Below are positions 5,461-30,025 of a stretch of DNA of 33,454 bases, one piece after another. Origin of the DNA: Bacteroidota bacterium (lineage in GTDB: Bacteria > Bacteroidota > Bacteroidia > Chitinophagales > UBA2359). The stretch covers positions 1 to 33,454 of the forward strand of contig JAHDHP010000005.1 in the NCBI GenBank assembly GCA_020631245.1, read 5' to 3'. How positions within the stretch are numbered: position 1 is the stretch's first letter; the number at the start of each line of letters is the position of its first letter. Below the pieces are notes generated by a model that worked only from the letters and a program-made list of their open reading frames with translations, had not been told where the DNA came from and ran no database searches. A program made the position numbers and the translations under genes.

Positions 5461-6012
5461 ATGTATGTATATCATCGTAAACCTCCTAATTTTCAAGGTA
5501 ATGTTCTTTATCCGTTGAATCAATTGAAGGATATATTTCCTGTTCTTTATGAAAAAGCGGCGAGTAAATACAAGGGACGAGAAATGATCATGCAACAGCA
5601 GATTCCTCGTTTGAACTGCTTGTGGAATGATGTGTTGCATTTTTCACCCGTTCATCCAGAAAAGGTTATGAACGCTTTATGGTCGCTTGGTTATCCGCCA
5701 CATAGCTCTACTTGGTGGAAAATAGATGTTGAAAAGGTAGGATTTAATGCTACGAATACCGTTGTTTATACAAATCACCGAAAACTTCCTTTTGGGGCAC
5801 CTTTTCCAATAGAAGATTTTATCCCTTTTGAAATAGCCCTAATTAACGAACATCAACAGCTTTCAGTTTCTACCCAAACTTATTATCAGGAATGCAAGGC
5901 ACAAAATCGGCGTCCTTTATTGTTTGTGAATGTTGCTCATGTGTTGCATTGGGGTGCGATTGATATAAGAGGAGTGGAGGAAGTAGTGGTGGTTGAAGGA
6001 AAAAAAGAGTGA
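5461..6012 (+). CDS. Hypothetical protein of a 'YVYH...GNVLYPLN...WNDV' family
   Basis: A 183-aa soluble protein without signal peptide. It begins MYVYHRKPPNFQGNVLYPLN and carries the sequences 'IPRLNCLWNDVLHFSPVHPE', 'LPFGAPFPIEDFIPFEI' and 'LLFVNVAHVLHWGAIDI'. From memory, similar proteins of about this length are annotated as group-specific or hypothetical in unrelated bacteria including bacilli, so this is probably a small widespread family of unknown function, perhaps horizontally spread. I see no proven active site, though the conserved-looking W, N, D and H residues are suggestive. Its TGA stop lies within the end of structured repeat copy A. The valine/glutamate tail (EEVVVVEGKKE) next to the repeat may be a recent addition. 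Confidence 0.7.
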   Translation: MYVYHRKPPNFQGNVLYPLNQLKDIFPVLYEKAASKYKGREMIMQQQIPRLNCLWNDVLHFSPVHPEKVMNALWSLGYPPHSSTWWKIDVEKVGFNATNTVVYTNHRKLPFGAPFPIEDFIPFEIALINEHQQLSVSTQTYYQECKAQNRRPLLFVNVAHVLHWGAIDIRGVEEVVVVEGKKE

Positions 6013-6230
6013 GGGATAGTAGTGGTAGCTTGGTGAAATAGGAGGCTAGTGATGCCTGTGCTGGCAGGGCTGACAACGGAAGACACTGCCAGCATATTGG
6101 CAGAACAGGCGGCTATGAAGCAACTACAAACGGATAGCCCGACCAAGCTGCAGTACTATCATTGCCTGCTCGTTTCATGCGAGGACGCATGAACGGGCGG
6201 CTGTGATAGTATTGCAGCTTAGGCACTCCC
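6007..6230 (-). repeat. Structured dispersed element, copy A
   Basis: Read on the minus strand, the copy begins GGGAGTGCC and ends ATCCCTCACTC. The ends can pair GAGT with ACTC. Inside is a long hairpin (GCTGCAATACTATCA with TGATAGTACTGCAGC) nesting TTCATGCG/CGCATGAA, then the shared core GGTCGGGCTATCCGTTTGTA. A second hairpin (GCTGGCAG/CTGCCAGC, 6060-6093) has the loop TGTCTTCC...GTCAGCC. Copies B and C in this window share this plan. The element overlaps the stop codon of the gene ending at 6012. The tail is followed by six T residues on the minus strand. Confidence 0.85.
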
Positions 6231-6255
6231 AAAATAAGAAATAAAAAAAATCCAC

Positions 6256-7305
6256 ATGAAACATTTTCACATTCTCTCTATTCTATTACTATTAGGATGT
6301 TTAATAGCTAGTTGTGCCCGTGTACCGAAAGATAGCAGTTATGAAACGAAGCGTATTATTACTGGACCAGGGGCAGAAGATTTGGTGATAGATACTGTTG
6401 TTTCGAATTTTCCGCGATTGTTGGTTTCATGTGTGGAACGAAGGGATCGGAATGTCAATTTTGAGGGAGATATTTATGAAATTAATTTGAATACGGATGA
6501 AAGTCGCCCTTTAAAACGGGTGGGAGAGCCAGATGATTTCATCTTTCAACCTCATGGAATCGACTTTATTTGTGATGCTAAGGGGGCTTGTTATTTGTAT
6601 GCGGTGAGCCATTTGAAAAAAGAAAAAAGCAAGGGAATAGATGAGGGGGCACATTTTGTGGTGAAGTATTTGGTGAAGCAACAAGAATTGATTTATCAGG
6701 CGACTTACACCTCTCCTTTATTTACTTCACCCAATGCGGTAGCGGCGTTGCCCAATGGAAGTTTTTATGTAACAAATGATGCTAAGAAACATTTGAGTAT
6801 TACGGAGTCGATGCTTAAACAAAAAAAGTCTACAGTCGTGTTTTATGATAGCCGATATGACGATTATTTAGTCGCTGCAAAGGATTTGGCTTTTGCCAAT
6901 GGGATCAGCATTGTAGATGATAAGGTGTATGTGGCTACGACTAGACAAGGTAAACTTTTTGTGTATCAGAAAGATGCAGGTGGAAGATTAACAAGTCCTG
7001 AAAAGGTGGCGTCTATTATGGGTCAAGATAATCTTAGAACTTATGGTGATAAATTTATTTTGCCTGTCCACCCTAAGAGTTTTGCTTTTTTGAGACATTA
7101 TAAGGATGCAAAAAACATATCACCAACTGTTGTCTATACCATAGATCCGTATAATCGTCCGCGAAAAGAAGTATTATATGCCGATAGTGGCAAGGAGATT
7201 TCTGCAGGCACAACAGGCATTATATACAACAATCACTTGTATATTGGGCAGGTGTTTGAGGCTTTTGTATTGAAAGTAGACTTGGGAGATAAAGGAACAA
7301 ATTAA
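6256..7305 (+). CDS. Paraoxonase/arylesterase-like beta-propeller lipoprotein
   Basis: A 349-aa lipoprotein: the signal peptide ends LIAS-C with the lipidated Cys at residue 20. The body resembles the PON (paraoxonase/lactonase) family, six-bladed calcium-dependent hydrolases. Family features visible in order are GAED (E41, D42, calcium-ligand positions), FQPHGI with H100, SPNAVAALPNGSFYVTND with N160, FANGI with N215, and DN at 258-259. These match the calcium sites of human PON1 by position, which is my alignment by eye. The likely role is hydrolysis of lactones or esters at the periplasmic side of a membrane; the substrate is unknown. The gene starts 25 bp after structured repeat copy A and overlaps the convergent DinB-like gene by four bases at the stop. 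Confidence 0.8.
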   Translation: MKHFHILSILLLLGCLIASCARVPKDSSYETKRIITGPGAEDLVIDTVVSNFPRLLVSCVERRDRNVNFEGDIYEINLNTDESRPLKRVGEPDDFIFQPHGIDFICDAKGACYLYAVSHLKKEKSKGIDEGAHFVVKYLVKQQELIYQATYTSPLFTSPNAVAALPNGSFYVTNDAKKHLSITESMLKQKKSTVVFYDSRYDDYLVAAKDLAFANGISIVDDKVYVATTRQGKLFVYQKDAGGRLTSPEKVASIMGQDNLRTYGDKFILPVHPKSFAFLRHYKDAKNISPTVVYTIDPYNRPRKEVLYADSGKEISAGTTGIIYNNHLYIGQVFEAFVLKVDLGDKGTN

Positions 7306-7952
7306 CTTCTTCCTCCTTGATACTCCCAAACATTATGGGAGGCACTTCCTTGTCTTGGAGCAGGTAAGTCTCCCCCATCGGATTTAATGTTTTGAAAGGC
7401 AGGCATTTCCATTACTCTTTTGGCTTGTTGGAGATGTCTTTGTTCATGGAGAACTATTAGGTTAAAAACTTCTAAAATAGAAAACGTATAAAAAGAACTT
7501 ACTGGAGAAGTAATTCTTACTTTATTTACATTTATTTGCTGTAAGGACTCTTCCATATAGCCCTTCAACAATTGTTGTTGCTCAATAAAATCCCAAATAA
7601 TTGTTTTGCGAATTCGCTTTCCAGAAGGCTTAAATTTCTTAGGAGATTTCATTATTTTGGTCGAGTTAGGACCTATATTTTTTAACATCCATCGCCCCAT
7701 TAATCTAGAAATAAGTGCGGTACTTTCTCGAAATGAATTTCCCTCTTTACGATTTATTTTTCGCTCTAAATCAAACACATAACTCTCATTCATAATGAGT
7801 AAATGCTCGAATATTTGCCCTACCCCCCACTCTTTTTCACTAGGAGCCCAATTGAGCTGAAAATAATTTAATGTTCCAAAATTTGCTCTAGCATCTTCGC
7901 AAAGCAAATCGATTTCCACCATTAGTTCTTCTATTGATTTTACTGCTGCCAT
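7302..7952 (-). CDS. DinB-superfamily four-helix protein
   Basis: A 216-aa cytoplasmic protein with the features of the DinB/YfiT fold, a metal-binding four-helix bundle used by thiol-dependent transferases and by many proteins of unknown role. The N-terminal helix is followed by 'WAPSEKEWGVGQIFEHLLIM', containing the first conserved His. The last helix has 'LIVLHEQRHLQQAKRV', whose two His residues fit the second and third metal ligands. The middle is unusually basic (SPKKFKPSGKRIRK). The activity cannot be assigned from sequence. The stop codon overlaps the end of the convergent paraoxonase-like gene, with no room for a separate terminator. Confidence 0.82.
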   Translation of the reverse strand: MAAVKSIEELMVEIDLLCEDARANFGTLNYFQLNWAPSEKEWGVGQIFEHLLIMNESYVFDLERKINRKEGNSFRESTALISRLMGRWMLKNIGPNSTKIMKSPKKFKPSGKRIRKTIIWDFIEQQQLLKGYMEESLQQINVNKVRITSPVSSFYTFSILEVFNLIVLHEQRHLQQAKRVMEMPAFQNIKSDGGDLPAPRQGSASHNVWEYQGGRS

Positions 7953-8076
7953 AATTACTTGTCTATTGTTCTACTTATTAGTTTTGAGTCCGAAAATAAT
8001 GAAAAAAAATTAAATTATTGCTGTTGAATCAATAACATGACTAGCTCATTTTTATCAGGATGTAATAAGAGACTGT

Positions 8077-8715
8077 TTATTTTTTGAAGGTAGCAATCAC
8101 ATGTACTCCCCACAAATGGCGTTTTGGATTAAAATTACCAAATATACTCATACCTATTCCAACATGTTTAGAAGCCAAATAACTAGCAACTATTTCAAAA
8201 TGAGCACCTACCGTATTGTATGTATTTTTGCGATACTCTTCTACTTGTCCATTTAGTAAAGATACCGTATTTAACAACTCAGCTCTTTGAACACCTCTTA
8301 TATAGGCTGGCCCTAATGCGAGATGCATCATATATTTTGATTTCCCCCAATTAAATCCCGACACAAATGTAATTTCTTGACTTATTTGTTGAGGAATGCG
8401 AGTAATGTTATTATTATTTATTTGAATCGGCTCCACAAATCTCGCAGAAGTAAGGCCCACAATGTGTTTGCGCTGTGCTACATGCACAAATATACTCGCT
8501 GAATATGTAGATAGTTCTCCATTTCCCCAACCAGTACCAAAATTAATATATCCCTTCAATGAGTTTTTTTCCTTATCTGCTTGAACAATTTGATCGATAC
8601 TTTGAGCGTTTAAGCTAAAACCAAAAATTAGTATAAAAATGATTATAATACAACAAGGTTTCAATATAAATTTCAATCTATTGTTTTTTAACTGATTCAA
8701 CAAATCATTACACAT
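8077..8715 (-). CDS. Outer-membrane beta-barrel-like protein
   Basis: A 212-aa exported protein. The N-terminus has a basic stretch and a hydrophobic core (CCIIIIFILIFGFSLNAQ) ending in a typical signal peptidase site. The mature part alternates short amphipathic strands (GYINFGTGWGNG, ASIFVHVAQ, YMMHLALGPAYI, HFEIVASYLA, GIGMSIFGNF) and ends 'GVHVIATFKK', as expected of an eight-strand outer-membrane barrel. The function is unknown. The ATG at 8715 is supported by a promoter-like sequence just upstream. The preferred start gives a long, basic N-region, so a later start is possible, but no other Met precedes the hydrophobic core. Confidence 0.72.
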   Translation of the reverse strand: MCNDLLNQLKNNRLKFILKPCCIIIIFILIFGFSLNAQSIDQIVQADKEKNSLKGYINFGTGWGNGELSTYSASIFVHVAQRKHIVGLTSARFVEPIQINNNNITRIPQQISQEITFVSGFNWGKSKYMMHLALGPAYIRGVQRAELLNTVSLLNGQVEEYRKNTYNTVGAHFEIVASYLASKHVGIGMSIFGNFNPKRHLWGVHVIATFKK

Positions 8716-8731
8716 AACATATTTTTTTATA

Positions 8732-8763
8732 CAAAAATCATAGTACGGAATCTCTAGGACAAA
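8732..8763 (-). promoter_or_regulatory. Candidate promoter for the barrel-like gene
   Basis: On the minus strand TTTG is followed by exactly 20 bases and GATTTTTG, seven of eight matches to TAnnTTTG. It would start transcription about ten bases before the ATG at 8715. Confidence 0.4.
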
Positions 8764-8817
8764 TAAAATTTAATTCATGCAATAAAAAGATCATATCACA
8801 TTAATAATTCTATCTTA

Positions 8818-8849
8818 TTTGGTTTTACCATAAATAAATTGTATTTTTG
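8818..8849 (+). promoter_or_regulatory. Consensus Bacteroidota promoter with long leader
   Basis: TTTG at 8818-8821, a 20-base spacer and TATTTTTG at 8842-8849 match the Bacteroidota sigma-factor consensus TTTG-N19-20-TAnnTTTG fully. The next plus-strand gene starts at 9072, so the 5' leader would be about 215 bases of very AT-rich sequence. The rest of the 8716-9071 gap shows no other feature to me. Confidence 0.5.
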
Positions 8850-9071
8850 TAACTATATGGTATAACATACAGCTTAACAAACACTTTAAAATTTAATTTC
8901 ATACACAAAATATTTTTTAATCAAACTGTATTAACAACGACAAATTTATCATTTGTTTAATTTCCATATAATACAAACTAGGCTTTTATATATGGATAAT
9001 TTCACCAACTTACGTATTTTTTATTAAGCAATAAATATATCTGACACATTTTTTAATCTAATTTAAATGAT

Positions 9072-9692
9072 ATGAAGCAAATTAAGTTGACACACGACGA
9101 ACTTAACATTTTATTACTGCATTATCAAAAGCAATTGGCAGATGCGGAACAACAATTGCAAGAAGCAGCAGATGAAGTAGATCGCATCAAAGGAAAAATT
9201 GCTGAACTTAATGTCTCTAATGGTCTTACCACCGCTAAGCCTGCTACAAAACCAGTGAGAAAGTCACCAGTAGAAACGGTGAAAGCTGCTCCTAAAAGGC
9301 CAGCAAAGGTTACTCAAAAAGCAGCTCCTAAAGTGGAAAGAGAATTGCCTCTTGTAGAAATGCGACCTGCTGAGAATGGAGCCCCTTTTGCCGCTTTGAG
9401 TATGACACAAAAAGAATGGAGAGACATTATTATGGAAATATTGGGTGAGACGAATAAGCCGCTGACTAATAAGCAAATTTTTGAACATGCTAAATCTAAT
9501 TTAGATTTAGAAGAAGATGAATTTAAGCGTGTAAAATCTACTATTGGTCAAGCATTGAATACTTTAGCAAATAAGAAAAATGAAGTATTTAAACATAAGA
9601 AGTTAGGAGAAAGAGGTTTTTACTATTGTTTACCTGAATGGTATAGCAAACAAGGAAATCTTAAAAAAGGATATGTAAAAATGATAAAGTAA
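9072..9692 (+). CDS. Coiled-coil protein with C-terminal winged-helix-like domain
   Basis: A 206-aa cytoplasmic protein in three parts. Residues 1-50 form a Gln/Glu-rich coiled coil (LLHYQKQLADAEQQLQEAAD). Residues 55-100 are a basic, Ala/Lys/Pro/Thr linker like a histone-H1 tail. Residues 113-195 read as a winged-helix domain ('EWRDIIMEILGETNKPLTNK', then 'KRVKSTIGQALNTLANKK' as a recognition-helix candidate and 'GERGFYYCLPEWY' as wing). That layout resembles HARE-HTH or similar DNA-binding wHTH domains. I infer a nucleoid-associated or regulatory protein that dimerises through the coil. A strong terminator follows 46 bases after the stop and a consensus promoter precedes it, so it is probably monocistronic. 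Confidence 0.75.
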   Translation: MKQIKLTHDELNILLLHYQKQLADAEQQLQEAADEVDRIKGKIAELNVSNGLTTAKPATKPVRKSPVETVKAAPKRPAKVTQKAAPKVERELPLVEMRPAENGAPFAALSMTQKEWRDIIMEILGETNKPLTNKQIFEHAKSNLDLEEDEFKRVKSTIGQALNTLANKKNEVFKHKKLGERGFYYCLPEWYSKQGNLKKGYVKMIK

Positions 9693-9737
9693 TTATCTTT
9701 TATACAACCATTCACATATTATATAGTATGTAATATC

Positions 9738-9774
9738 AAAAAGCGACAATTAAATTTAATTGTCGCTTTTTTTA
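9738..9774 (+). terminator. Strong rho-independent terminator
   Basis: AAAAGCGACAATTAAATTTAATTGTCGCTTTTTTT is a near-continuous palindrome followed by T residues. It ends the coiled-coil/winged-helix gene. Confidence 0.85.
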
Positions 9775-9869
9775 TTCCATTCAGAGAAGTAATGATTAAA
9801 AAATGTAGCTTCTTCATTCGTCTTATGGACATATCCTTTTAACATCTTTAACATCTCTTTACATACATC

Positions 9870-10685
9870 ATGAAAAGCAATTATCTACTTATCCCTTTTA
9901 TATTATTGTGTTTTACCTTTATTACTTGTCGTGTAAACAAAAATATTGTCCAAGATAAACCCATGATCTTTATTGAGGGGGGGAGTTTTATGATGGGAAC
10001 TAGTAAAGGAAAAAAATGGGATCGCCCTCCTCATGAAGTTAATCTTACCAGCTTTTATATGGATCAATATGAAGTTACGAATGCTGAATATTGTAATTTT
10101 TTAAATCAACATGGAAATAAAAAAGAAAAAGGAGCTTATTGGTTAGATATAGAAAGTACGGATTGCTCTATTGAAAAAGTAGATAATTTATTTGTTCCTA
10201 AAACGGGTTTAGAAAATCATCCTGTTGTAGAAGTTACTTGGTATGGAGCCAATGCTTATGCCCAACATCTGGGAAAACGCCTTCCTACTGAAGCAGAATG
10301 GGAATATGCTGCTAGAGGCGGTAATAAAAGTAAGAACTTTACTTTTAGTGGGGCTTCCGATCCTTTAAATATTGGGTGGTTTCTTAGTAACACTAAAAAT
10401 CTCCAACCTATCGGGAAAAAACCACCAAATGAATTGATGATATATGATATGAGTGGAAATGTGTATGAATGGTGTTCCGATTGGTATGATCGTTTATACT
10501 ATAGTAAAAGTCCAATAAATAATCCTACTGGTGCTATAGATAAAGATGACCCACTATATAAAGTCATTCGAGGAGGATGTTGGATTAGTATTCCTGATTT
10601 TTTACGTGTTACTAGACGAAATAGTTTTAATCCAGATTTTAGTGACTATACGATCGGCTTTAGATGTGTAAAAGATGTCTTATAG
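9870..10685 (+). CDS. FGE-sulfatase-fold (SUMF1-like) lipoprotein
   Basis: A 271-aa protein with a signal peptide ending 'FTFITC', probably a lipoprotein with Cys20 lipidated, though the -3 Phe is atypical. The body is a complete formylglycine-generating-enzyme fold: 'MIFIEGGSFMMGTS', 'FYMDQYEVTNAEYCNFLN', 'HPVVEVTWYGANAYAQHLGK', 'RLPTEAEWEYAARGG', 'YDMSGNVYEWCSDWYD', 'VIRGGCWIS' and 'IGFRCVKDV'. The catalytic Cys pair of true FGE, in the segment after RGGSW, is not present: that stretch reads IPDFLRVTRRNSF. It is therefore probably not an active sulfatase-maturing enzyme. Bacteroidota use the fold structurally too, for instance in the gliding/T9SS lipoproteins GldJ and GldK. This protein is shorter, so I do not assign it to them. 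Confidence 0.85.
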   Translation: MKSNYLLIPFILLCFTFITCRVNKNIVQDKPMIFIEGGSFMMGTSKGKKWDRPPHEVNLTSFYMDQYEVTNAEYCNFLNQHGNKKEKGAYWLDIESTDCSIEKVDNLFVPKTGLENHPVVEVTWYGANAYAQHLGKRLPTEAEWEYAARGGNKSKNFTFSGASDPLNIGWFLSNTKNLQPIGKKPPNELMIYDMSGNVYEWCSDWYDRLYYSKSPINNPTGAIDKDDPLYKVIRGGCWISIPDFLRVTRRNSFNPDFSDYTIGFRCVKDVL

Positions 10686-10694
10686 CCCCAGTAA

Positions 10695-11477
10695 CTAATT
10701 CATATTATGGACTTGGTCTAATAAAACCTTTACTCGCTTAGCATCTACTTTGTTAGCCCAGTACCCATTTTCTTTAAAAGCAGACCCTATAATTAAGCCA
10801 TCTACAAGTGGGATATAAGCCCTTATATTTTCTGCATTAATACCAGAACCTACCCATATAGGTATAGTTACTTTTTGCCGCACCATTTGAATATCCTTTA
10901 AGGACGTCGCTTTTCCTGTAGAAGTACCTGTTATAACCAACCCATCACTCCTAAAAAAAGTAGCTGTTTCTGCTAACTCAGTGATAGAAATATCGGCAGT
11001 AATAGCATGAGAGCTATGTTTCTTTTGTATATCCGTCATTATTTTTACTGTATCTGCCCCAATCATTTTTCGATAACGTAATAACTCAGCGGCATCAGAT
11101 TGTATGAATCCTTCATCCCCAATATGCGCAAAAACAAATCCTTCTGCACGAATAAATTCTAAACCTGCCGCATGAGCTACTGCTAAAGCTGCTTTATTAG
11201 CTCCTGCTAAAATTTGTATTCCACAAGGTAACTTGGTTTGTTGTTTGACCGCTAATGCAACTCTTGTCATAACGGAACTTATTTCATGTCCTACTTCTTT
11301 TCTAAGGTAAGGGACATCATGCATATTCTCTATGAGTAAGCAATCTACTCCCAATTTTTGATATAAGCGTGCCTCTTCAACTGCTTTTTGTACAATCAAT
11401 TCTACACTTCCTTCATAGGTAGGTGTGCCTGGCAAAGCTGCCACATGAATCATGGCAATGATACTTGGTGGTTTCAA
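10695..11477 (-). CDS. BtpA/SgcQ-family TIM-barrel protein
   Basis: A 260-aa cytoplasmic protein of the BtpA/SgcQ family, TIM barrels named after a cyanobacterial photosystem I biogenesis factor but common in non-photosynthetic bacteria, where the activity is unsettled. Signature segments: 'IAMIHVAALPGTPTYEGS', 'DCLLIENMHDVPYL', 'GIQILAGANKAALAVAHAAG', 'IRAEGFVFAHIGDEGFI', 'DGLVITGTSTGKAT' and the phosphate-loop-like 'IPIWVGSGINAENI' and 'DGLIIGSAFK'. No ATG exists upstream in frame; an in-frame TAA lies 12 bases before the first codon, which is TTG at 11477. A TTG start is therefore the best choice, the only Met alternative being inside the first strand. It converges with the FGE-fold gene, nine bases apart. 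Confidence 0.85.
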   Translation of the reverse strand: MKPPSIIAMIHVAALPGTPTYEGSVELIVQKAVEEARLYQKLGVDCLLIENMHDVPYLRKEVGHEISSVMTRVALAVKQQTKLPCGIQILAGANKAALAVAHAAGLEFIRAEGFVFAHIGDEGFIQSDAAELLRYRKMIGADTVKIMTDIQKKHSSHAITADISITELAETATFFRSDGLVITGTSTGKATSLKDIQMVRQKVTIPIWVGSGINAENIRAYIPLVDGLIIGSAFKENGYWANKVDAKRVKVLLDQVHNMN

Positions 11478-11662
11478 AAAAATGACTTTTTATCTATGTT
11501 TATAATATATTAAATGGTATCCATTTTCATATTAAAGTAAAATAAACTTAAAAATGCTAGATTATCTGCGAAATAATCATTTCAGAAGATTACAAACTTG
11601 CACTAAAAGTAATAAATTTTTATTTTACCACTTAATTATTTCCATTTTCAAATAAAACTCAT

Positions 11663-12457
11663 ATGCTAAATTCATTCCTTAATGTAATATCCCCTCCCAA
11701 AGCGATTTCATTACTTGGCTGTTTATTCTTACTCCTCACTACTGGTACATTTTCTCAAGCACAAACAAATACAACTTGGGCGTTGGTAATGGAAAAACCA
11801 AATCAGTTTGTGGAGCAATTATGGGAATCTAAATCCTATTTTCCTGATCGTGAAATTGACAATCACTATCGAAATGGATTTATCATTGATAAAGTAGAGT
11901 ATGGCAATGGTCGTTGGGTGGTAGTACTAAACAAACCAAGCGTTAGTACTCCCCAAATTTGGAGATACAAAATGGTATATCCTTCTCAAGAGATTCAAGA
12001 ATTTTATGATAAAGGTTACGTAATTAGTTCGCTTACCTTCGGCAATGGTCGATGGGTTTTAGTGATGAACAAATCAGTCAACTATATTCCACAAGTATGG
12101 CGAACTCGTTCTTATTTTCCACAAGCTGAAATTGACGAGTTATATCAACAAGGTTTTATTATTAAAGAGCTGACTTATGGAAATGGCAAATGGGCGGTTG
12201 TTATGGAAAAACCTAGTACTCATATTCCACAGGTATGGCGAAGTAGTGCTAACTTCCCTAAGGAAGAAATACAAGAATTCTATAATCAAGGATACCTTAT
12301 TAGTAGTCTAGTATATGGTCGTGGTCAATGGGTTGTTGTTTTAGATAAACCAAATATCCGAAAAGAACAGGTTTGGCGAACACGTTCCTATTTCCCTGAT
12401 CGTGAAATTCAAGAACTATATGACCAAAACTATATTATCAAAGATATTTTTTATTAA
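11663..12457 (+). CDS. Secreted protein of five exact 46-residue repeats
   Basis: A 264-aa exported protein. A signal peptide of about 34 residues (hydrophobic LLGCLFLLLTTGTFS, cleavage near SQA-Q) is followed from Trp39 by five tandem repeats of exactly 46 residues with no insertions, the last truncated at 42 by the stop. Each unit reads W.[VL]V..[K]P....QVWR...YFP..EI.E.Y..G[FY].I..L.YGNGR. Units 1, 3 and 5 resemble one another (SYFP, FII or YIIK), as do 2 and 4 (EIQEFY..GY.ISSL), so an ancestral pair seems to have been duplicated. The 'YGNGRWVVV' wording recalls the DUF7477 repeat found in bacteria and in plant casein-kinase-like proteins. The function is unknown; a closed or solenoid beta structure is likely. 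Confidence 0.85.
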   Translation: MLNSFLNVISPPKAISLLGCLFLLLTTGTFSQAQTNTTWALVMEKPNQFVEQLWESKSYFPDREIDNHYRNGFIIDKVEYGNGRWVVVLNKPSVSTPQIWRYKMVYPSQEIQEFYDKGYVISSLTFGNGRWVLVMNKSVNYIPQVWRTRSYFPQAEIDELYQQGFIIKELTYGNGKWAVVMEKPSTHIPQVWRSSANFPKEEIQEFYNQGYLISSLVYGRGQWVVVLDKPNIRKEQVWRTRSYFPDREIQELYDQNYIIKDIFY

Positions 12458-12507
12458 AACTTTACACTTTTCATCGAGCTATCATTCTCATTATCAATAG
12501 CTTGCAT

Positions 12508-12547
12508 CAAAAAAGCCACCTGTTTTTTACAACAAGTGGCTTTTTTT
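12508..12547 (+). terminator. Rho-independent terminator
   Basis: AAAAAGCCACCTG and CAAGTGGCTTTTTTT form a stem with one mismatch around a T/A-rich loop, followed by seven T residues. It ends the five-repeat protein gene. Confidence 0.8.
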
Positions 12548-12555
12548 GTAATTAG

Positions 12556-12656
12556 TTTTCTATTCCTTTTACCTGATATTTGACAATAGAAAGGATAAAT
12601 CAATTAGTCAGGTGAAAGGCGATAGATCATAATTTTGTGTCTATTGCCTTTTTTTT
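12556..12656 (+). ncRNA. Candidate small RNA ending in a second terminator
   Basis: AGGCGATAGA (12617-12626) and TCTATTGCCT form a 10-bp stem with one G-T pair followed by eight T residues, a second plus-strand terminator 70 bases after the first. Just before it, TTTTACCTGA (12567-12576) can pair with TCAGGTGAAA (12608-12617) over ten positions with one wobble. Two helices ending in a U tract suggest a compact transcript of about 100 nt. No clear promoter was found. A back-up terminator for the upstream gene is the simpler alternative. Confidence 0.4.
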
Positions 12657-12666
12657 ATTTGATACT

Positions 12667-12795: not shown

Positions 12796-12814
12796 CTCTT
12801 AAGGTTTTATTAAA

Positions 12815-12861
12815 TAAAAAAGAGTTAGCAAAACAAGCTTTATCAACTGTTTTACTAACTC
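12815..12861 (-). terminator. Rho-independent terminator of the RRM gene
   Basis: On the minus strand GAGTTAGTAAAACA pairs with TGTTTTGCTAACTC (13 of 14 exact, one G-T) and is followed by six T residues. It ends transcription from the RNA-binding protein gene before the 42-residue peptide gene. Confidence 0.85.
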
Positions 12862-12933
12862 CTACCAATTAAATATTTAATTGGATCTATAAAATAAACG
12901 CACTTCAGTTAGAAGCTTGTTTATCAGCTGTTT

Positions 12934-15521: not shown

Positions 15522-15533
15522 ATTCAACCATTT

Positions 15534-15610
15534 CGTACAGACAAGGCATGACTTGTCTCTACTCTACCACCAACTGCTCTCGTACAGACAAGGCATGACT
15601 TGTCTCTACT
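15534..15610. repeat. Two copies of a 30-bp palindromic (REP-like) repeat
   Basis: CGTACAGACAAGGCATGACT plus ten further bases occurs at 15534-15563 and again at 15581-15610, identical over 30 bp and 47 bp apart. Each copy contains the stem AGACAAG/CTTGTCT. The second copy lies inside the coding sequence of the BNR protein and encodes the residues ETSHALSVRE near its C-terminus. The first copy supplies its TAG stop codon. The wording resembles short 'GTAGAGAC...GTCTCTAC' intergenic repeats seen in other bacteria. Confidence 0.8.
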
Positions 15611-18247: not shown

Positions 18248-18482
18248 GGGCGTGCCCTTGCGCAGGGATTGGGATATTATGGGCTTGAAAAAAGTACAGC
18301 GTAACGCTAACACAATCCCTCAAGCCCACAATCCCTGCTTCAGGTCGGGCTTTCGGCTAATAGTTGGCTCGTATAAAAGGTGTTCGGCTATTTTTGCTGG
18401 CAGTGTCTTCCTTCGTCAGCCCTGCCAGCAAAAGCCTCACAACCTTTCTACTTCACCAATCTTCCGCCTCTATCCCTCACGC
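18248..18482 (+). repeat. Structured dispersed element, copy B
   Basis: It starts GGGCGTGCCC and ends ATCCCTCACGC, so GCGT can pair with ACGC. The first hairpin domain differs in sequence from copies A and C but has the same plan: GCAGGGATTG/CAATCCCTGC, GGGCTTGA/TCAAGCCC and AGCGT/ACGCT nested in order. The core reads GGTCGGGCTTTCGGCTAATA. The second hairpin is TTTTGCTGGCAG/CTGCCAGCAAAA (18392-18433) around the loop TGTCTTCC...GTCAGCC. It lies just upstream of the BNR protein gene. Confidence 0.85.
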
Positions 18483-22599: not shown

Positions 22600-22623
22600 A
22601 GTGGTTTGGGTTTATAGGCTAAA

Positions 22624-24162
22624 CTAAATAAATACCTTATCTCCCGATAATCGTTGATATAAGGCGGCTCCTGTCCAGAAGGTTCCCGCAAAACCCGCAT
22701 AGCCAGAAGAAGCATTACAGAAGTAAAAATTCTTTAGCGAACTCTCGTGGGTGAGACGACCAATACCAATATTTTTAGGACTTAAATTAGAACCGTAAGA
22801 ATTGCCTTCTGGACACCAGCAGTACCGCTCGTTGGTAGTGGGGCTACCCGTCATTTTGAACACCATGTATTTTCGAAAATCTGGGATATAGTGCTTTTCT
22901 ACTTGATCGACAATCGACCAGAGAATGTTCATTTTTTCTTTTTTGTAGGTCTTTTCATCTCTATTTTTCAAGGCTCTCCAATAGTCGTAATTGGCAACGG
23001 TGAGAAACTCCACAATTTGCCAACCTTCGGGACAATCACCTCGATGGGTGGTTAACTGTGAAGGAGTGGTAATCGCAAAACTTGGATTGCTATAATCGTT
23101 CTCCTTATACATTTGGTAGAAGGCGGTATTGATGTCCTGATGTCCTGTGTGAAACACATTCCATTTGCCAAACCCATACTTCTGTAAATCAAGGTCTTTT
23201 ACAACTACATAAGCCATATAGTTGGAAGGTGAATAATCGTAGTCCAGCTTTTTTTGGAGCGACTTGGAGAACTTATCCCACCCAATAATATGCGCTGCCT
23301 TTTTAGGGTCCATATTACAAATGATGGTTTCCCCTGTCAGTGCAAAAGAGGCATCGGTAAGCAGATTTTTACCTGTCACTCCATACACTCGTTTGCCAGT
23401 TGTTAAGATATTGTGTACTTCATGATTGTAAAGAATCTCTCCCCCATTTTCTCGTATTACTTCTACCATACTATCCATCACATCTTCAAAGTGCTTGGTT
23501 GGATAATAGGCCCCTCTTTGGTAGCCTGTAAATAACATGACCCAAGCATAAAAGGATAATTGATCGGGAGGTAATAGAAAGTCAGGCCATTGAGAGGCTA
23601 ATAATGTTTGTGCGGGCAAGGGCAATTTGAATTCATCAAAGACATCTTGTAGCGTATAACGCAAATATTTAAGGGCAGTAGTTATTGGCTTAAATTGAGT
23701 GAATGCCGTTGCAACTTTAATAGGAAAAGAAGCATTTCCTAAACCTATACTTACTTGATTAACCGTATTGACAAAGGCTTTAAATTGATCGGTAGAATCA
23801 GGAAACAAATTACTTAATCGGCTAATCAACTCTTCGGAAGAGGAAGGGATTTTTAGGTGATAACCTGGCATGTACATATGGTCAAAACCATCGGGATCGT
23901 AGCGTTCAAAGGTAACGCTTTTGTCTAAGCCTAGTTTTTTGAGGACTAAATTGACGGTTTCGCCTTCTCCACAATTCCATACATAATGTAATTGTGCATT
24001 AAATTTATATTTTCGAGCCATTTCGAAGGTATGACCAAAGCCTCCTGGAAATTCATGGGCTTCTATTACGCATACTTTTTTTCCGTGTTTGGCCATTAGT
24101 GCAGCGAAGGAAAGTCCTGCAATTCCGCTGCCGATAACAAGATAGTCAATTGGTTGGTTCAT
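22624..24162 (-). CDS. Phytoene-dehydrogenase/retinol-saturase-like flavoprotein
   Basis: A 512-aa flavoprotein of the phytoene desaturase (CrtI), carotenoid isomerase (CrtISO) and retinol saturase group. The start at 24162 gives MNQPIDYLVIGSGIAGLSFA, the FAD-binding motif at the normal distance from the N-terminus; a longer reading runs through tandem repeats and is rejected. 'VIEAHEFPGGFGHTFEM' is the expected acidic/GG(x)H segment. 'GETIICNMDP' and the C-terminal 'FYFCNASSGYAGFAGTFWTG' complete the fold. Its wording 'GG.GHTF' and the length fit the CrtISO/RetSat branch better than classical CrtI. Its natural substrate, a carotenoid, polyprenoid or other unsaturated lipid, is inference. The P450 gene is divergent from it. 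Confidence 0.87.
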   Translation of the reverse strand: MNQPIDYLVIGSGIAGLSFAALMAKHGKKVCVIEAHEFPGGFGHTFEMARKYKFNAQLHYVWNCGEGETVNLVLKKLGLDKSVTFERYDPDGFDHMYMPGYHLKIPSSSEELISRLSNLFPDSTDQFKAFVNTVNQVSIGLGNASFPIKVATAFTQFKPITTALKYLRYTLQDVFDEFKLPLPAQTLLASQWPDFLLPPDQLSFYAWVMLFTGYQRGAYYPTKHFEDVMDSMVEVIRENGGEILYNHEVHNILTTGKRVYGVTGKNLLTDASFALTGETIICNMDPKKAAHIIGWDKFSKSLQKKLDYDYSPSNYMAYVVVKDLDLQKYGFGKWNVFHTGHQDINTAFYQMYKENDYSNPSFAITTPSQLTTHRGDCPEGWQIVEFLTVANYDYWRALKNRDEKTYKKEKMNILWSIVDQVEKHYIPDFRKYMVFKMTGSPTTNERYCWCPEGNSYGSNLSPKNIGIGRLTHESSLKNFYFCNASSGYAGFAGTFWTGAALYQRLSGDKVFI

Positions 24163-24213
24163 AGAGTAAATATAAGGAATGATTGGAGAAAAAGGAATTG
24201 TGATGGGGCGAAA

Positions 24214-24295
24214 AAACGATTGAACGATTGAACGATAAACGTCCGACGGAAAACGATGAAACGATTTGCGTCCGACGTCCGATGAAAAACGAATG
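24214..24295. repeat. Degenerate short tandem repeats between divergent genes
   Basis: ACGATTGA is repeated with period 8 (AACGATTGAACGATTGAACG), followed by GTCCGACG words and GAAACGATTTGCGTCCGACG. Related wording (GATTGAACG, GTTCAACCG) recurs at 25773-25830. These look like slippage-prone spacers rather than coding or protein-binding sequence. Confidence 0.6.
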
Positions 24296-24319
24296 ACGTG
24301 TAGGGATGCCCAAAAAATA

Positions 24320-24333
24320 CAATGCGCGCATTG
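24320..24333. promoter_or_regulatory. 14-bp palindrome, candidate operator
   Basis: CAATGCGCGCATTG is a perfect palindrome of 14 bp in an otherwise AT-rich region, its last three bases being the -33 TTG of the P450 promoter. Position and symmetry fit a repressor dimer site controlling the P450 and possibly the divergent flavoprotein operon. Confidence 0.5.
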
Positions 24334-24361
24334 CAAACTAGTCACAAAAATGTTACTTTTG
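24330..24361 (+). promoter_or_regulatory. Consensus promoter of the P450 gene
   Basis: ATTG, a 20-base spacer and TACTTTTG match TTTG-N20-TAnnTTTG with one -33 mismatch. The start of transcription would lie about 25 bases before the ATG at 24393. Confidence 0.65.
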
Positions 24362-24392
24362 TTGATCTTCTTTTCTCACCAAAATAGACACC

Positions 24393-25775
24393 ATGAGCGA
24401 AACTCACCAAACAGCTACCCGATCTATTCCGCGTGTTCCTTATTCTGAGAGTATCAAGAATATACAAAAAGCGGTTAGAAATCCTATTTCTGTGTTCTTT
24501 CCATATAAACGCAAGTATGGAAATATTTTTTCGATTCGATTGGGAGGAAATCAAGAGTTGATTATTCTTTCAGACCCGAAGTATATTCAGCAGGTGTTGC
24601 AAAAAAAGAATAAGATTTATCATAAAACGGAGGTGCAAACGGAAGGATTAGCGCAATATGTGGGCAAAGGTTTATTGACGAGTGAAGGAGAATATTGGTT
24701 GAAGCAAAGACGCTTGATTCAACCTGGGTTTCACCGCCCTAAATTGGCTGCTCTTGCGAGTGATATGTTGAATGAGGTGCGGGATTTTGAAACGAGTTTT
24801 GAGCCATATATCGACCAATTTGAGAGCTTCGATATGAAGAAGTATATGATGCACTTGACCTTCCGCATTGTATCTCGTTCTTTATTTGGTACGAGTGTTA
24901 CTTTTGATGAGTTGTTACAGATTGAACAGACGATTGAGGATATTCAAGCCTATTTTGTGAGTAAAACACGGCAGCCTTATTTGAAGCCTCTTTTTCATTT
25001 GATTGGTCGAGAGCAGTTTTATAATGAGATGTTGAAACTGTCGGATAAAATCATTTTCCGCACGATTAACGAGCGAAGACAAACCAATGGAGAGGAATAC
25101 CATGATTTGTTGGATATGTTAATGAAGAGCCGCTATGAGGATACGGGTGAGGGGATGACTGATCAGCAGCTACGCGATGAGAGTTTGATTTTGTTTGTGG
25201 CGGGCCATGAAACAACGGCAAATGCAATGACTTGGCTGTGGTATTTATTGGCACAACATCCGAAAGAGGTGCAAAAATTACGCGAGGAGGTAGATCGGGT
25301 GTTGGGTGATCGTAAGGAGATTACCTTTGCGGACTTACCCAATTTGGTGTATAATCGCCAGGTAATTGATGAGTCGATGCGCCTCTACCCGCCTGCTTGG
25401 ATTACAGATCGCATTGCAGTGGCTGATGATGTGATTGATGGTTATCTGATTCCGAAAGATAGTATTGTCTTGACCTTTATTTATGGGATGCATCGAGATG
25501 AGAACCTATGGCCAAAGGCGCATCACTTTATCCCTGAGCGGTTTAGTAAGGAAAATAAAAAGAAGCATACCAAATATGCTTACATTCCTTTTGGAGGTGG
25601 CCCTAGATTGTGTATTGGAAATAACTTCGCCTTGATGGAAATGCAAATCATACTCGCGCATTTGATACGCCAGTATGATTTTAGTATTGTGCCTGGTCAA
25701 AAGATTATTACTAAGCCTTTGGTGACCTTGCATCCTGATGGGGGGATGATGATGCGGATTAAACGAAAACGGTGA
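24393..25775 (+). CDS. Cytochrome P450 monooxygenase
   Basis: A 460-aa class of soluble bacterial P450 with every core motif: I-helix AGHETT at residues 270-275, ExxR as ESMR (327-330), the PERF segment 'FIPERF', and the heme-ligand loop FGGGPRLCIGN with the thiolate Cys at 407. 'WLKQRRLIQPGFH' is the C-helix WxxxR region. There is no N-terminal anchor and no fused reductase, so ferredoxin and reductase must come from elsewhere. The length and PPAW/GYLIP wording resemble the CYP4/CYP102-like clan of fatty-acid and isoprenoid hydroxylases. Divergence from two desaturase-like flavoproteins suggests joint tailoring of a carotenoid, sterol-like or lipid substrate, which is inference. Confidence 0.95.
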   Translation: MSETHQTATRSIPRVPYSESIKNIQKAVRNPISVFFPYKRKYGNIFSIRLGGNQELIILSDPKYIQQVLQKKNKIYHKTEVQTEGLAQYVGKGLLTSEGEYWLKQRRLIQPGFHRPKLAALASDMLNEVRDFETSFEPYIDQFESFDMKKYMMHLTFRIVSRSLFGTSVTFDELLQIEQTIEDIQAYFVSKTRQPYLKPLFHLIGREQFYNEMLKLSDKIIFRTINERRQTNGEEYHDLLDMLMKSRYEDTGEGMTDQQLRDESLILFVAGHETTANAMTWLWYLLAQHPKEVQKLREEVDRVLGDRKEITFADLPNLVYNRQVIDESMRLYPPAWITDRIAVADDVIDGYLIPKDSIVLTFIYGMHRDENLWPKAHHFIPERFSKENKKKHTKYAYIPFGGGPRLCIGNNFALMEMQIILAHLIRQYDFSIVPGQKIITKPLVTLHPDGGMMMRIKRKR

Positions 25776-25834
25776 AACGATTGAACGGTGGAACGGACTA
25801 CGATTGAACGATGATCGTTCAACCGTTCAACCAC
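25776..25834. repeat. Short-repeat spacer with hairpin between convergent genes
   Basis: Words of the type GATTGAACG and CCGTTCAACC form an inverted repeat. The best hairpin is TTGAACGAT-g-ATCGTTCAA (25804-25822), a 9-bp stem. It fills the whole gap between the P450 and the convergent multidomain gene and may act as a two-way terminator; T runs are absent. Confidence 0.55.
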
Positions 25835-28800
25835 TTAGTATCGTATAACCGTCACTCCCAACTTACTTGCATTCGGTTGATAAAGATTGAAATCGGCAAC
25901 GGTTACATTGGAGTCCATGTTTAAATCGCCCCAAATATAGCGGCTCACCAGAGAAGATTCGATTAAATAAACATCATTATAATCGCCTACGGTAATGACA
26001 CCATCTCCATCCATATCGCCTGTTATCATCGCTTGTACTGTACCTACTGTATTTAATTGATTAGCTCCTTCTAAGACCATACTTGGATCACTTAAATCGT
26101 AAGGGCTAGTGTTATTGACAGCCAATGGATTGGCGGTTGCAATATCAATATGATTACGATGACGAACGATGAGGTGATATGCCGCATTTGCATCGAGACT
26201 ATTGAAAGTCGCTCCTGCTGTTCCTGCCACATCCATCACCATTCCATCGGAACGTAGCCAACAAGCTTTGCTTTGTAAGACATTGTAATCAGCATCTCTC
26301 AATTCGATTAATATCCAATCGACCATATCACTAGGAATACTTGTCAATGCTTCAGTTCCTGCATAGTTATAAGGAGCAGCCTGATAAGGTTGATTTAATT
26401 CGATGAGGTTCTTGGTAGCTAAAATAGTACGCATCATTCCCATACTCATATCGTATGCTCCTTCGAGCTGTATTTGTAATTGTATGACACCTTGGTTTAA
26501 GAAGTCAAAACTCTCTGAACTGGTACAAAAACCATTGCTTACTTCTAAGGTATAAACTCCATCTTGAGTAGGACTATAAGAAGCACTTTCTGCTCCTACT
26601 ATTAAATCATCCCCGTAGTACCATTGGTAAGTAGTATAAGTTCCATCTGTTTGTAAAGCTTCATCTACAAGCGCAATACTCGGCACACTCGGATCTTCAT
26701 GAATGGTTACTTCTTCTTCTATCACAAAGCCATTGTAAGTATAGCTGATCGTATAGGTTCCGACTCCAATATCAGCAGGTATAAATTCGCTGATGGGGTC
26801 ATCATTCAAGAATAAGGAACCACCTGCTGGATTCAATTCGATATTGGTACTCGTTGCCGATATACAATAATCCGTTTCTAGATTTAAAATAGCTACGGCT
26901 ACTAGTTCAAAGGCATAACTAGCAGAGATAGTACTACAAGTACCATTTGTTACTTCTATTGTATAATCTCCATCTGCATTTGGGGAATAACTCGCTGTAG
27001 TTGCTCCACTAATTGGATTGCCATTAAAGTACCATTGGTACGTATCGAAGGTGCCAGCGATAGAAAGCACACCTGCCGATTCGCTAATGGTACCTGGCAT
27101 AGGCATAGCATCAACCGTTACTGTTTCATTGACTGATTGTCCATTGTATGTATAGGTCAAAATATAAGTTCCTGCTCCTAAGCTCGAAGGATCAAAGCTG
27201 GCTACAGCGTCTCCATCTACATATAATTGTCCTCCTGCGGGACTTAGATTAATACCCGTACTTGTTTCACTTTCACAATAATTACTTTCTACATCCAATA
27301 TCTGTACAACTACAAATTCAAAAGCATAAGCAGCAGTAGTCGCACTACAAATACCGCTCGTTACTTCTATTGTATAATCGCCATCAGCTGTTGGTGCGTG
27401 ACTCGCTGTAGTTGCTCCACTAATTGGATTGCCATTAAAGTACCATTGGTACGTATCGAAGGTGCCAGCGATAGAAAGCACACCTGCCGATTCGCTAATG
27501 GTACCTGGCATAGGCATAGCATCAACCGTTACTGTTTCATTGACTGATTGTCCATTGTATGTATAGGTCAAAATATAAGTTCCTGCTCCTAAGCTCGAAG
27601 GATCAAAGCTGGCTACAGCGTCTCCATCTACATATAATTGTCCTCCTGCGGGACTTAGATTAATACCCGTACTCGTTTCACTTTCACAATAATTACTTTC
27701 TACATCCAGTATTTGAACAACTACTAATTCGTAAGCATAAACACCAGATACATCACTACAATATCCACTAGCAATTTCTACTTGGTAATCGCCATCCACG
27801 GTTGGCGTATACGTAGCCCCAATAGCCCCACTAATCGGATTCCCATCCAAATACCATTGGTAGCTATCGTAGGTACTAGGTACTGATAAAGTTCCACCAC
27901 TTTCGGTGATACTTGGAAGCGTAGGCAAAGCATCTACTGTTACTGTGACATTATCCGAACTACTTGCATAGGTATAGGTGAGTGTATGCATTCCAGGCCC
28001 CGCAGCCGATGGATCAAATGTATTGGCACTTACTCCTGTTCCGCTAAGCGTCCCTCCAGCAGGTATCAATTGCAAACTACTAGTTGTTTCTGTTTCACAA
28101 TATCCTTCTACTAAATTGGTAATACTGGCGGCTGGTGGATTGGGTAATCCTTCTGTATATTGTAGAATGGTAATCATCATTTCATTGGTACTCTGCAAAC
28201 CAAAGGTGACCAAACTATTAGATGAATTATAATAACTCGCTTCTTGAATTAAGCCTTGTCCAGCGGGTAGCTGATAAAAAGGATCGAAATAACGAATGGG
28301 TTGATGTTCCCAATCATAATAACCCTGATTAAAATCGTCTGTATAATTATAAAAGCCCTCATACAACTGCTCTCCTTTACTGTTTCCTTCCTTAACATAC
28401 ACATCGAAATCAGTTCCATATTGATGAGTATGAGAGGTCATCATCCATATAAACCAATCTTGGTTGTTGTTGATATTTCCAGAAAAGTTAGAGGTTTGAT
28501 TAGGAGGTAAAAAGAGGCTAGTATATAAAAACAACTCCGACTTCATTTCATATTCTGCTGTTCCCGTAGCTTGGGTATACACATTCATATAAACATCCGT
28601 AGGAGCAGGTCCTATATTACTATAATTAGGGACGTGGTAATTTAAATCTAATATGGTATTTTCATCCCAAAAGAAAGCCGTTCCAGCAGGTAGCTCAATG
28701 TTATCATCATACTGCCAAACAGCGACTAAGTCTTCATTACTATCGGTAAAAGGATTATTAAACAAGGAAATATCGCGCAGTCCTTCATCATAATTACTAG

Positions 28801-29473
28801 CATCCGAGCGATCCAGTTTATACAAGATATAGTGATGCGACAAATCACTCATTTTCACATCTACTCGACTAATTTCTGTGGCTCCTGTCAATTGAGGATC
28901 ATATTTCATCATAAACTCATCCTCTTGTCCAGGCGGAATAAAGATAGGTCCCATATGTACTTGAAATCCTTGCCCAGGAGCAGGCGGTGCAGGACGTGTC
29001 ACCGGAGGTACTCCCCCATCTATATAATATTCATCAATTACTGCCTCATCAACGACTTCACCTGTTGATGGTGATCCCATAATAATCCATTGTCGAACCA
29101 TTTCGACTTCAATATCCGTCAATCCTGCGTGATTTGGATCTGTAGGAGCTACAGCTCCATCTTCCGCATCAATCAACCCATTATTTAATTTGAGTAAGAA
29201 ATGACTACGATACGGATAACCAGGCGATACTCGTTTATGTCCATCACTCATCGCTCCACCATCGGAAGGATCAACATTGACAATAGCATTATACAAATCG
29301 GTATGCGTACCACTCAAATCAAGCCCTGCTGCTGCCGAGGCGTCATGACAACCAGCAACTGCACAACCATTGGTTTGTACAATTTGATGCACTCGCTCAA
29401 GCGTAGAAATAGCAAAACTGAAAGTGGAAAAAAAACAAATCAGTAGTAGGGAAAGGGTAATGTGTTTCATCAT
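25835..29473 (-). CDS. Secreted CX3CH-cytochrome/copper-monooxygenase-like/Ig/dockerin-like protein
   Basis: A 1212-aa exported protein. From the ATG at 29473 the signal peptide is MMKHITLSLLLICFFSTFSF-A. Domains in order: residues 37-43, CAVAGCH, a heme-type motif with three rather than two residues between the cysteines, in a planctomycete-cytochrome-like segment of about 100 residues; residues 170-450, a domain matching copper type II ascorbate-dependent monooxygenases, with HH at 213-214, a single His at 280, H.H at 348 and 350 (TSHTHQYG) and a Met near 432, all positions of the two copper sites of PHM; then Ig/PKD-like repeats with 'YQWY.NG.PI.GA' and 'DGDY..EV.NG.C'; finally two dockerin-type calcium loops (GDMDGDGVITVGDYN, GDLNMDSNVTVADFN). 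No T9SS type A domain is evident. The role is unknown; oxidative chemistry at the cell surface is plausible. Confidence 0.88.
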   Translation of the reverse strand: MMKHITLSLLLICFFSTFSFAISTLERVHQIVQTNGCAVAGCHDASAAAGLDLSGTHTDLYNAIVNVDPSDGGAMSDGHKRVSPGYPYRSHFLLKLNNGLIDAEDGAVAPTDPNHAGLTDIEVEMVRQWIIMGSPSTGEVVDEAVIDEYYIDGGVPPVTRPAPPAPGQGFQVHMGPIFIPPGQEDEFMMKYDPQLTGATEISRVDVKMSDLSHHYILYKLDRSDASNYDEGLRDISLFNNPFTDSNEDLVAVWQYDDNIELPAGTAFFWDENTILDLNYHVPNYSNIGPAPTDVYMNVYTQATGTAEYEMKSELFLYTSLFLPPNQTSNFSGNINNNQDWFIWMMTSHTHQYGTDFDVYVKEGNSKGEQLYEGFYNYTDDFNQGYYDWEHQPIRYFDPFYQLPAGQGLIQEASYYNSSNSLVTFGLQSTNEMMITILQYTEGLPNPPAASITNLVEGYCETETTSSLQLIPAGGTLSGTGVSANTFDPSAAGPGMHTLTYTYASSSDNVTVTVDALPTLPSITESGGTLSVPSTYDSYQWYLDGNPISGAIGATYTPTVDGDYQVEIASGYCSDVSGVYAYELVVVQILDVESNYCESETSTGINLSPAGGQLYVDGDAVASFDPSSLGAGTYILTYTYNGQSVNETVTVDAMPMPGTISESAGVLSIAGTFDTYQWYFNGNPISGATTASHAPTADGDYTIEVTSGICSATTAAYAFEFVVVQILDVESNYCESETSTGINLSPAGGQLYVDGDAVASFDPSSLGAGTYILTYTYNGQSVNETVTVDAMPMPGTISESAGVLSIAGTFDTYQWYFNGNPISGATTASYSPNADGDYTIEVTNGTCSTISASYAFELVAVAILNLETDYCISATSTNIELNPAGGSLFLNDDPISEFIPADIGVGTYTISYTYNGFVIEEEVTIHEDPSVPSIALVDEALQTDGTYTTYQWYYGDDLIVGAESASYSPTQDGVYTLEVSNGFCTSSESFDFLNQGVIQLQIQLEGAYDMSMGMMRTILATKNLIELNQPYQAAPYNYAGTEALTSIPSDMVDWILIELRDADYNVLQSKACWLRSDGMVMDVAGTAGATFNSLDANAAYHLIVRHRNHIDIATANPLAVNNTSPYDLSDPSMVLEGANQLNTVGTVQAMITGDMDGDGVITVGDYNDVYLIESSLVSRYIWGDLNMDSNVTVADFNLYQPNASKLGVTVIRY
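26990..27673 (-). repeat. 411-bp intragenic duplication with 273 identical bases
   Basis: Bases 26990-27262 and 27401-27673 appear identical and are exactly 411 bp apart, 137 codons, so the duplicated Ig-like module stays in frame. The flanks (26940-26989, 27263-27310) diverge gradually. This is a recent duplication or gene-conversion product inside the multidomain gene. Confidence 0.88.
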
Positions 29474-29805
29474 AATTATTTTTCTTTCCCTAAAGATAAT
29501 CATTTATTTTTCTTTACTTATATGTAAAGGGCACCAAATCCTCAATATAAACCGATTGATTAGAATGATAGTTTTTCATATGCTTAAAATTTAGTTAGTC
29601 TACAAAATACATTGAGTGCAAATTATCATATTACAAGGATACTTCTTTACTCGTATTAACTAAACTTTTATCTGCCAATGGGAATAATGCTACTGCGAAT
29701 GCGCTTCAAACAAGGCAAAAAAGCACTTCATAGGCAAAAAACAAGCACTCGTTTACAAAAACCATTTTTTTGTTTACAAATTCAAGCATTACACTTTTAT
29801 TTTCT
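29474..29805. other. AT-rich intergenic region
   Basis: A gap of 332 bases before structured element copy C. It has a short inverted repeat CTTTAC-TTATAT-GTAAAG (29512-29529) upstream of the multidomain gene and a run of AAAAAACAAGCA-type words near 29720-29760. Nothing codes convincingly. Confidence 0.45.
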
Positions 29806-30025
29806 GGGCGTATCCAAGCCGCAATATGCCTACCCACTTGTTCATGCGATAACGCATGAATCGGCAGACGCTTATACTGCGGCTTGGTCGGGCTATCCGT
29901 TTGTAGTTGGCTCATAGAAAACATATTCGGCTAGGTTGCCTAGCAGTGTCTTCCTCCGTCAGCCCTGCTAGGCAAAGCCTCATTATGTTTCTATTTCTCC
30001 AAGCTACCACTATTATCCCTTACGC
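29806..30025 (+). repeat. Structured dispersed element, copy C
   Basis: It starts GGGCGTATCC and ends ATCCCTTACGC, with GCGT/ACGC able to pair. Hairpin one is AAGCCGCAATAT with ATACTGCGGCTT, nesting TTCATGCG/CGCATGAA as in copy A. The core GGTCGGGCTATCCGTTTGTA is identical to copy A. Hairpin two is GCCTAGCAG/CTGCTAGGC (29938-29973) around the loop TGTCTTCC...GTCAGCC. It lies 34 bases past the PhoD gene's stop codon, on the opposite strand. Confidence 0.87.

Follow-up and report, generated by a model that had tools for sequence, protein, structure and literature searches.

Three copies of a dispersed element lie in the window, the whole 33,454-nucleotide stretch of Bacteroidota DNA analysed here. 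Direct reading of the sequence places them at 6007-6230, 18248-18482 and 29806-30025, as the initial annotation had proposed, and the conserved core has three matches over the whole window, where chance would give 0.15. Upstream of the first copy, the open reading frame at 5461-6012 takes its stop codon from the copy's first bases, inside GAGTGAGGG. The element is a three-way junction with arms P1, P2 and P3, its two ends pairing as P1. In the list below, strands are those under selection, R1 is a covariance model of the P2 domain, and R2 is a model of the junction made from 14 compact elements only, taken from metagenomic viral contigs and Bacteroidota genomes.

6007-6230, + (selected strand): copy A, whole element, read from the sequence; R2 match at 6007-6160, E = 3.5e-5
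6007-6011, +: copy A, 5' side of P1, GAGTG, pairing with CACTC at 6224-6228; compensated relative to GCGTG/CACGC
6007-6144, +: copy A, long arm (P2 domain), the Flavo-1 core plus an inserted hairpin with loop GGGCTGAC..GGAAGACAC; R1 136.1 bits
6143-6223, +: copy A, arm P3, the swappable hairpin with nested GTTCATGCG../..CGCATGAA
18248-18482, -: copy B, whole element
18343-18482, -: copy B, P2 domain; R1 146.8 bits
18478-18482 with 18250-18254, read on -: copy B, closing stem, GCGTG with CACGC
18255-18344, -: copy B, P3 arm, self-complementary and of a sequence family other than that of A and C
29806-30025, -: copy C, whole element; R2 match at 29868-30025, E = 0.0022
29886-30025, -: copy C, P2 domain
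30021-30025 with 29808-29812, read on -: copy C, closing stem, GCGTA with TACGC
29813-29888, -: copy C, P3 arm, from the whole-element DNA fold

The compensated pairs by which copies B and C had been said to differ (T-A to G-C, G-C to C-G and G-C to A-T) are seen in the sequence around the kept loop AGTGTCTTCC..GTCAGCCCT, as are the nested TTCATGCG/CGCATGAA arm common to copies A and C and the unrelated yet self-complementary arm of copy B. The tail CCCTYACGC, which had been given as shared by all three, does not hold for copy A, whose tail is CCCTCACTC; because this change compensates the head GGGAGT of copy A, it makes the case for structure stronger. A further compensated change, overlooked in the initial annotation, lies in the P1 closing stems, which read GAGTG/CACTC in A, GCGTG/CACGC in B and GCGTA/TACGC in C.

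Other repeats are found nearby. A MITE-like dispersed repeat of ~162 bp with 38-bp inverted ends (AGAGGCTGTCTTGATTTT..) occupies 5234-5395 of the window; it is absent at the orthologous site of the sister genome (G001) and has many copies elsewhere in that genome. Word-like low-complexity repeats (ATTCAGTCATTCGCTCATTC; ATCGTTCAATCGTCGGACGT; GATTGGGTGATTGGATGACTGG) occur at 24214-24276 and 25767-25823 and in the flanks of many copies, clustering beside the element and often directly 5' of it. Additionally, an exact 31-bp repeat, TCGTACAGACAAGGCATGACTTGTCTCTACT, is present twice at 15533-15610, and a relative of it inside the P3 arm of copy L009 indicates that P3 arms can contain other repeats.

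Fold and strand under selection

On the selected strand, the element is laid out as GCGTG-AGGGAT..(P2)..GGATAGCCCGACC-(P3)-GCACGCCC, and when copy C is folded as DNA over its whole length, P1, P2 and P3 all form (z = -8.2). P2 in its compact form contains two 3x3 purine internal loops with 2 bp between them, to which the window subfamily adds a long insert with the kept loop at its end. Terminal stems of at least 10 bp are present in 112 of 139 P3 arms, compared with 2 of 139 after shuffling, and the median stem is 19 bp rather than 5 bp; grouping the arms by the words they have in common lacked the resolution needed to test arm exchange.

The stems covary. Among 31 copies, 21 of the 42 P2 pairs have changed on both sides, with a score that none of 500 shuffles reached. 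Under a tree-based null, in which substitutions were re-placed at random on the tree, three pairs among 146 copies exceeded the alignment-wide threshold, all of them pairs of the structure, to which nine of the ten strongest covarying column pairs also belong. P1 covaries in alignment A4 as well as in the window's three copies, and the architecture of the Flavo-1 superfamily, a P1 stem joining the ends together with a P3 arm, is thus found both by folding and by P1 covariation.

Single-step departures from Watson-Crick pairing in well-formed pairs comprise 62 G.T against 9 A.C parsimony events (p = 7e-11). Since this ratio would reverse on the opposite strand, the selected strand is the complement of the one on which the initial annotation had read the element. 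The G.T excess arises from both directions, through 28 C-to-T and 34 A-to-G events, and unpaired columns show many G-to-A changes, so that mutation bias does not explain it. The significant covarying pairs and the strand asymmetry of the intermediates support the earlier proposal that selection acts on a folded single strand, rather than repeat decay having produced the pattern, while strand asymmetry alone cannot separate RNA from single-stranded DNA (ssDNA).

Flavo-1 kinship and dispersal in Bacteroidota

An Rfam scan of the window gave no match at the gathering score. At a relaxed threshold, Flavo-1 (RF01705) was matched on the selected strand over positions 1-76 of its 76 (23.8 bits for L003 and 20.5 bits for L009); because scores of 20-24 bits lie below the curated gathering score of 42, the window element is reported as an extended relative of Flavo-1 and not as a member. 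The P2 core aligns at full length on one strand, with R2 matched over positions 1-82 of 82 in both copies A and C. Within the R2 alignment, 93.5% of cells are paired and 9 of 18 pairs have changed on both sides, and of 148 near-complete genomes from the phylum the model matches 24. The initial annotation had mentioned, without a name, repeats of this kind in other Bacteroidota, and correctly so, as they are the Flavo-1 family, which in several relatives is a repeat with at least 75-87 scored copies and is multi-copy in G004, G017 and G020. The full junction is seen in the compact copies of Bacteroidota genomes (L047, L040) and of viral contigs; many viral-contig matches to a 16-base core were rejected as chance matches in phage genes. 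The extended P2 form was also observed in an uncultured Bacteroidia MAG (L131:396-538), where the P3 arm seems to be missing, and in a Chlorobiota MAG (L135:1460-1620), in both with closing stem GCAGC/GCTGC.

The element is abundant in its own genome, where R1, applied to 371.6 kb of contigs, scored 45 copies at 60 bits or more (~12 per 100 kb); the contigs sampled were the longer ones, chosen for carrying a copy, and ~540 copies genome-wide is an upper-side estimate. A first DNA search of the same genome returned 643 candidates, and copies are equally frequent in G001, a genome that agrees with the public MAG JAHDCM01 over the contig compared. Across 140 copies with both ends found in the own and sister genomes, none lies inside an open reading frame; they are intergenic, at short distance from genes, and show no bias in gene orientation (left neighbours 50 to 50, right neighbours 42 to 58). 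No clear replication-strand bias was found in three complete genomes, a weak test with ~50 copies and sampled GC skew, and the chromosomal copies are therefore probably not chromosomal priming sites. The lack of gene bias and of clear replication bias fits amplification as a selfish or neutral repeat.

Synteny gives one clear case of presence and absence, as the site of copy A is empty in G001, where orthologues of the flanking genes are adjacent without the element; the intergenic sequence there is too diverged to define the insertion joint. A joined-flank BLAST search for precise empty sites in loci of the own and sister genomes returned one weak match, in which the left flank alone was similar. 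None of the copies examined is the end of an insertion sequence, a reading against which the initial annotation had weighed its own, since they are complete, ~180-300 bp long and intergenic, with differing flanks. A flank preference (Y on the left, A on the right) was rejected as part of the element because it does not covary.

The sole PF01797 gene found in the incomplete own genome, encoding a Y1 (RAYT-type) transposase (L031:155-838), is not accompanied by the element. It sits among AACCTGTCAGGTT-type palindromes, which form a separate REP family, and a RAYT link was rejected. In G094, a 6.2-kb unit bounded by inverted elements (L338:1-6208) was likewise rejected as an autonomous transposon, since the tRNA-Ile/Ala pair inside it is characteristic of an rRNA operon; at 3.14-3.15 Mb, the two element matches recur.

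Conjugative plasmids and filamentous phages

Junction matches of R2 extend to plasmids of Moraxella (3e-15), Acinetobacter (1.3e-7), Shewanella (4.8e-7) and Vibrio (2.7e-4), to F (3.8e-8 and 6e-5) and to R388 (5e-4 and 1.1e-3), those to Vibrio, R388 and an inovirus (L276) being weak, and Bacteroides and Paraclostridium plasmids are matched as well. The scores that link the extended form of the window to the plasmids are weak (Flavo-1 20-24 bits; R2 E-values of 3.5e-5 and 0.002). R2 found no match on phiX174, ColE1 or ColIb-P9, the last being a plasmid with known ssDNA promoters.

On the six plasmids with an inferable oriT side, all 15 copies of the element lie on the inferred transferred strand (two on F, two on R388, four on M. 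bovoculi, two on M. ovis, one on M. catarrhalis and four on V. alginolyticus plasmids), copies within one plasmid and among the Moraxella plasmids not being independent. The oriT side was inferred from the order of the relaxosome, coupling protein and relaxase genes; for F and R388 we take it from established knowledge, and for the other plasmids we assume it by analogy. Two side observations concern these plasmids: in the R388 element (L391:20079-20211), GTG/CAC replaces GGG/CCC at the base of P2, the same compensated change as in G031 (L040), and in Moraxella plasmids (L272:966-1122, L278:5881-6038) one copy stands directly beside the inferred oriT, adjoining a TrwA-like gene.

The two elements of F, at 58091-58172 and 63479-63560, belong to the strand entering the recipient, and ssb and ygeA follow ~470 bp downstream of them. 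No more than a few bases separate the 3' end of the element from the end of the Frpo1/Frpo2 duplication. The element thus ends both repeats, and its positions fit those published for Frpo1 and Frpo2, ssDNA promoters that stand ~5 kb from each other, ahead of ygeA and ssbF (PMC9849209). The F-type element is carried by 3,988 plasmid records, 3,081 of them typed as conjugative, and by 2,137 of 5,426 E. coli genomes, in which 4,633 of 4,692 places (99%) are on plasmids. Anti-defence genes of the leading region are reportedly encoded by the transferred strand alone (PMC11541004). On Vibrio vulnificus pYJ016, Shewanella baltica pS22303 and B. fragilis pBF9343, whose oriT side is uncertain, the element stands upstream of genes for ArdC or DUF3560 and on the strand opposite to theirs, and an Acinetobacter phage-plasmid carries it upstream of ArdA, again on the opposite strand. 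Two filamentous phages have the element on the coding strand: L276, with Zot and a G2P replication protein, and L386, with a secretin and a phage replication protein. A search of the available literature found no paper tying Flavo-1 to plasmids.

Interpretation and comparison with known systems

The reading that we favour, with confidence evenly divided for and against it, is that the element folds and acts as ssDNA, as a three-way junction of the Flavo-1 superfamily that has been amplified on Bacteroidota chromosomes; an initiation role is our most economical guess at its job. Action as ssDNA is suggested by the conserved fold, by strand-specific selection, by placement on the transferred strand of plasmids and the coding strand of ssDNA phages, and by the inconsistent transcription of Flavo-1 (PMC9723704). 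The initial annotation had left RNA and ssDNA open, and the plasmid and phage evidence favours ssDNA.

The element would be active when the strand GCGTNAGGGAT...AGCCCGACC-(hairpin)-GGNACGCCC is single-stranded, the active molecule probably being DNA, and the window would hold its extended form, with a long P2 insert and a long exchangeable P3 arm. On conjugative plasmids, the active strand would be the transferred strand entering the recipient, and in filamentous phages the coding, presumably packaged, strand. The element would likely serve as a single-strand initiation site: within SSB-coated ssDNA, its fold would offer a landing pad to a conserved host factor, which would start priming, or support early transcription, on that strand. 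On the chromosomes of Bacteroidota, the same fold has been amplified into a non-autonomous, intergenic repeat, whose copies probably spread through single-stranded intermediates by some enzyme. No partner protein or enzyme was found for the element, which counts against the ssDNA-initiation reading. So do the absence of a clear replication-strand bias among chromosomal copies, the failure of R2 to match ColIb-P9, phiX174 and ColE1, the F element's want of AAGCGG and of a visible -35/-10 pair, and the weakness of the scores for Vibrio, R388 and L276 and of those by which the extended form is linked to plasmids.

Alternatively, and with a rather low probability, the element may be a non-autonomous mobile hairpin, REP/RAYT- or IS200/IS605-like, with a fold selected only as the ssDNA substrate of a transposase and with plasmid copies that are ordinary insertions. 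High copy number, intergenic position, palindromic arms, a strand-specific fold and the empty site in G001 agree with such a hairpin, but the only Y1 gene found in the incomplete own genome stands among different palindromes with no element beside it, no composite or autonomous copy was seen, and the constant place beside Frpo in F-type plasmids, on one strand only, suggests use in place. It is improbable that the element is a structured RNA, a small RNA or UTR element acting after transcription, as which Rfam files Flavo-1. Comparative data had led to the proposal of that family as RNA (Weinberg et al. 2010, PMC2864571), and G.U-compatible intermediates on one strand would be equally expected of RNA; on the other side stand the unrelated orientation of neighbouring genes, the hundreds of dispersed copies, the occurrence in ssDNA phages and on the transferred strand, and RNA-seq of F. 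psychrophilum, in which Flavo-1 matches occur in sense as well as in antisense orientation and often fall where no transcription was found (PMC9723704). Intergenic position, palindromes and nearby genes agree with a BIME-like element, binding protein or setting topology as double-stranded DNA, but such an element is very improbable, since a duplex site would not give rise to the excess of G.T over A.C, and strand locking on plasmids also speaks against it. Template-switch correction of palindromes without selection, for which the long near-perfect P3 arms are typical substrates, is hardly credible as the source of the paired changes, being already disfavoured by covariation and strand asymmetry, as well as by conserved loop and internal-loop sequences, covariation of P1 between ends ~200 bp apart and retention of the same three-way junction between phyla.

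Action as ssDNA may tentatively be generalised, with somewhat less than even confidence, into the proposal that Flavo-1 is not an RNA but a trans-phylum ssDNA initiation element of conjugative plasmids (F and R388 included), filamentous phages and Bacteroidota chromosomes, on which it reaches hundreds of copies, and that it spreads through ssDNA. If true, an orphan "RNA" of 2010 without known function would be re-assigned to ssDNA and tied to the best-studied conjugative plasmids, where the proposal is immediately testable; a widespread module would be added beside the leading-region ssDNA promoters, and a large class of dispersed Bacteroidota repeats would be explained.

Compared with known systems, the element shares with Flavo-1 RNA the P2 core GGGAT..AGCGG..AGCCC, whereas window-type copies carry ~80-85 extra P2 bases, and their P1 closing stem and P3 arm are unpaired in the Rfam model. 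REP/RAYT systems are likewise dispersed intergenic palindromic repeats, but the window element is much larger, forms a three-way junction and is without a linked RAYT, the Y1 gene at L031 having no copy at its sides. PriA primosome assembly sites, ssi and sso offer a functional analogy, as folded ssDNA initiation sites on conjugative plasmids and ssDNA phages. AAGCGG/AGCGG is present in compact members, and we take the former to be the motif of primosome assembly sites, whereas the F member is without AAGCGG, and phiX174 and ColE1 are unmatched by R2. When the F element was read by eye, no -35/-10 pair was visible, and Bacteroidota promoters differ. The plasmid relatives (all 15 copies) share with Frpo a leading-region position on the transferred strand, the window element itself being chromosomal. 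Frpo1 and Frpo2 of F each end in a Flavo-1-type junction on the transferred strand, but their published function belongs to a stem-loop with -35/-10 boxes (PMC9849209), beside which the junction appears to be a neighbouring module.
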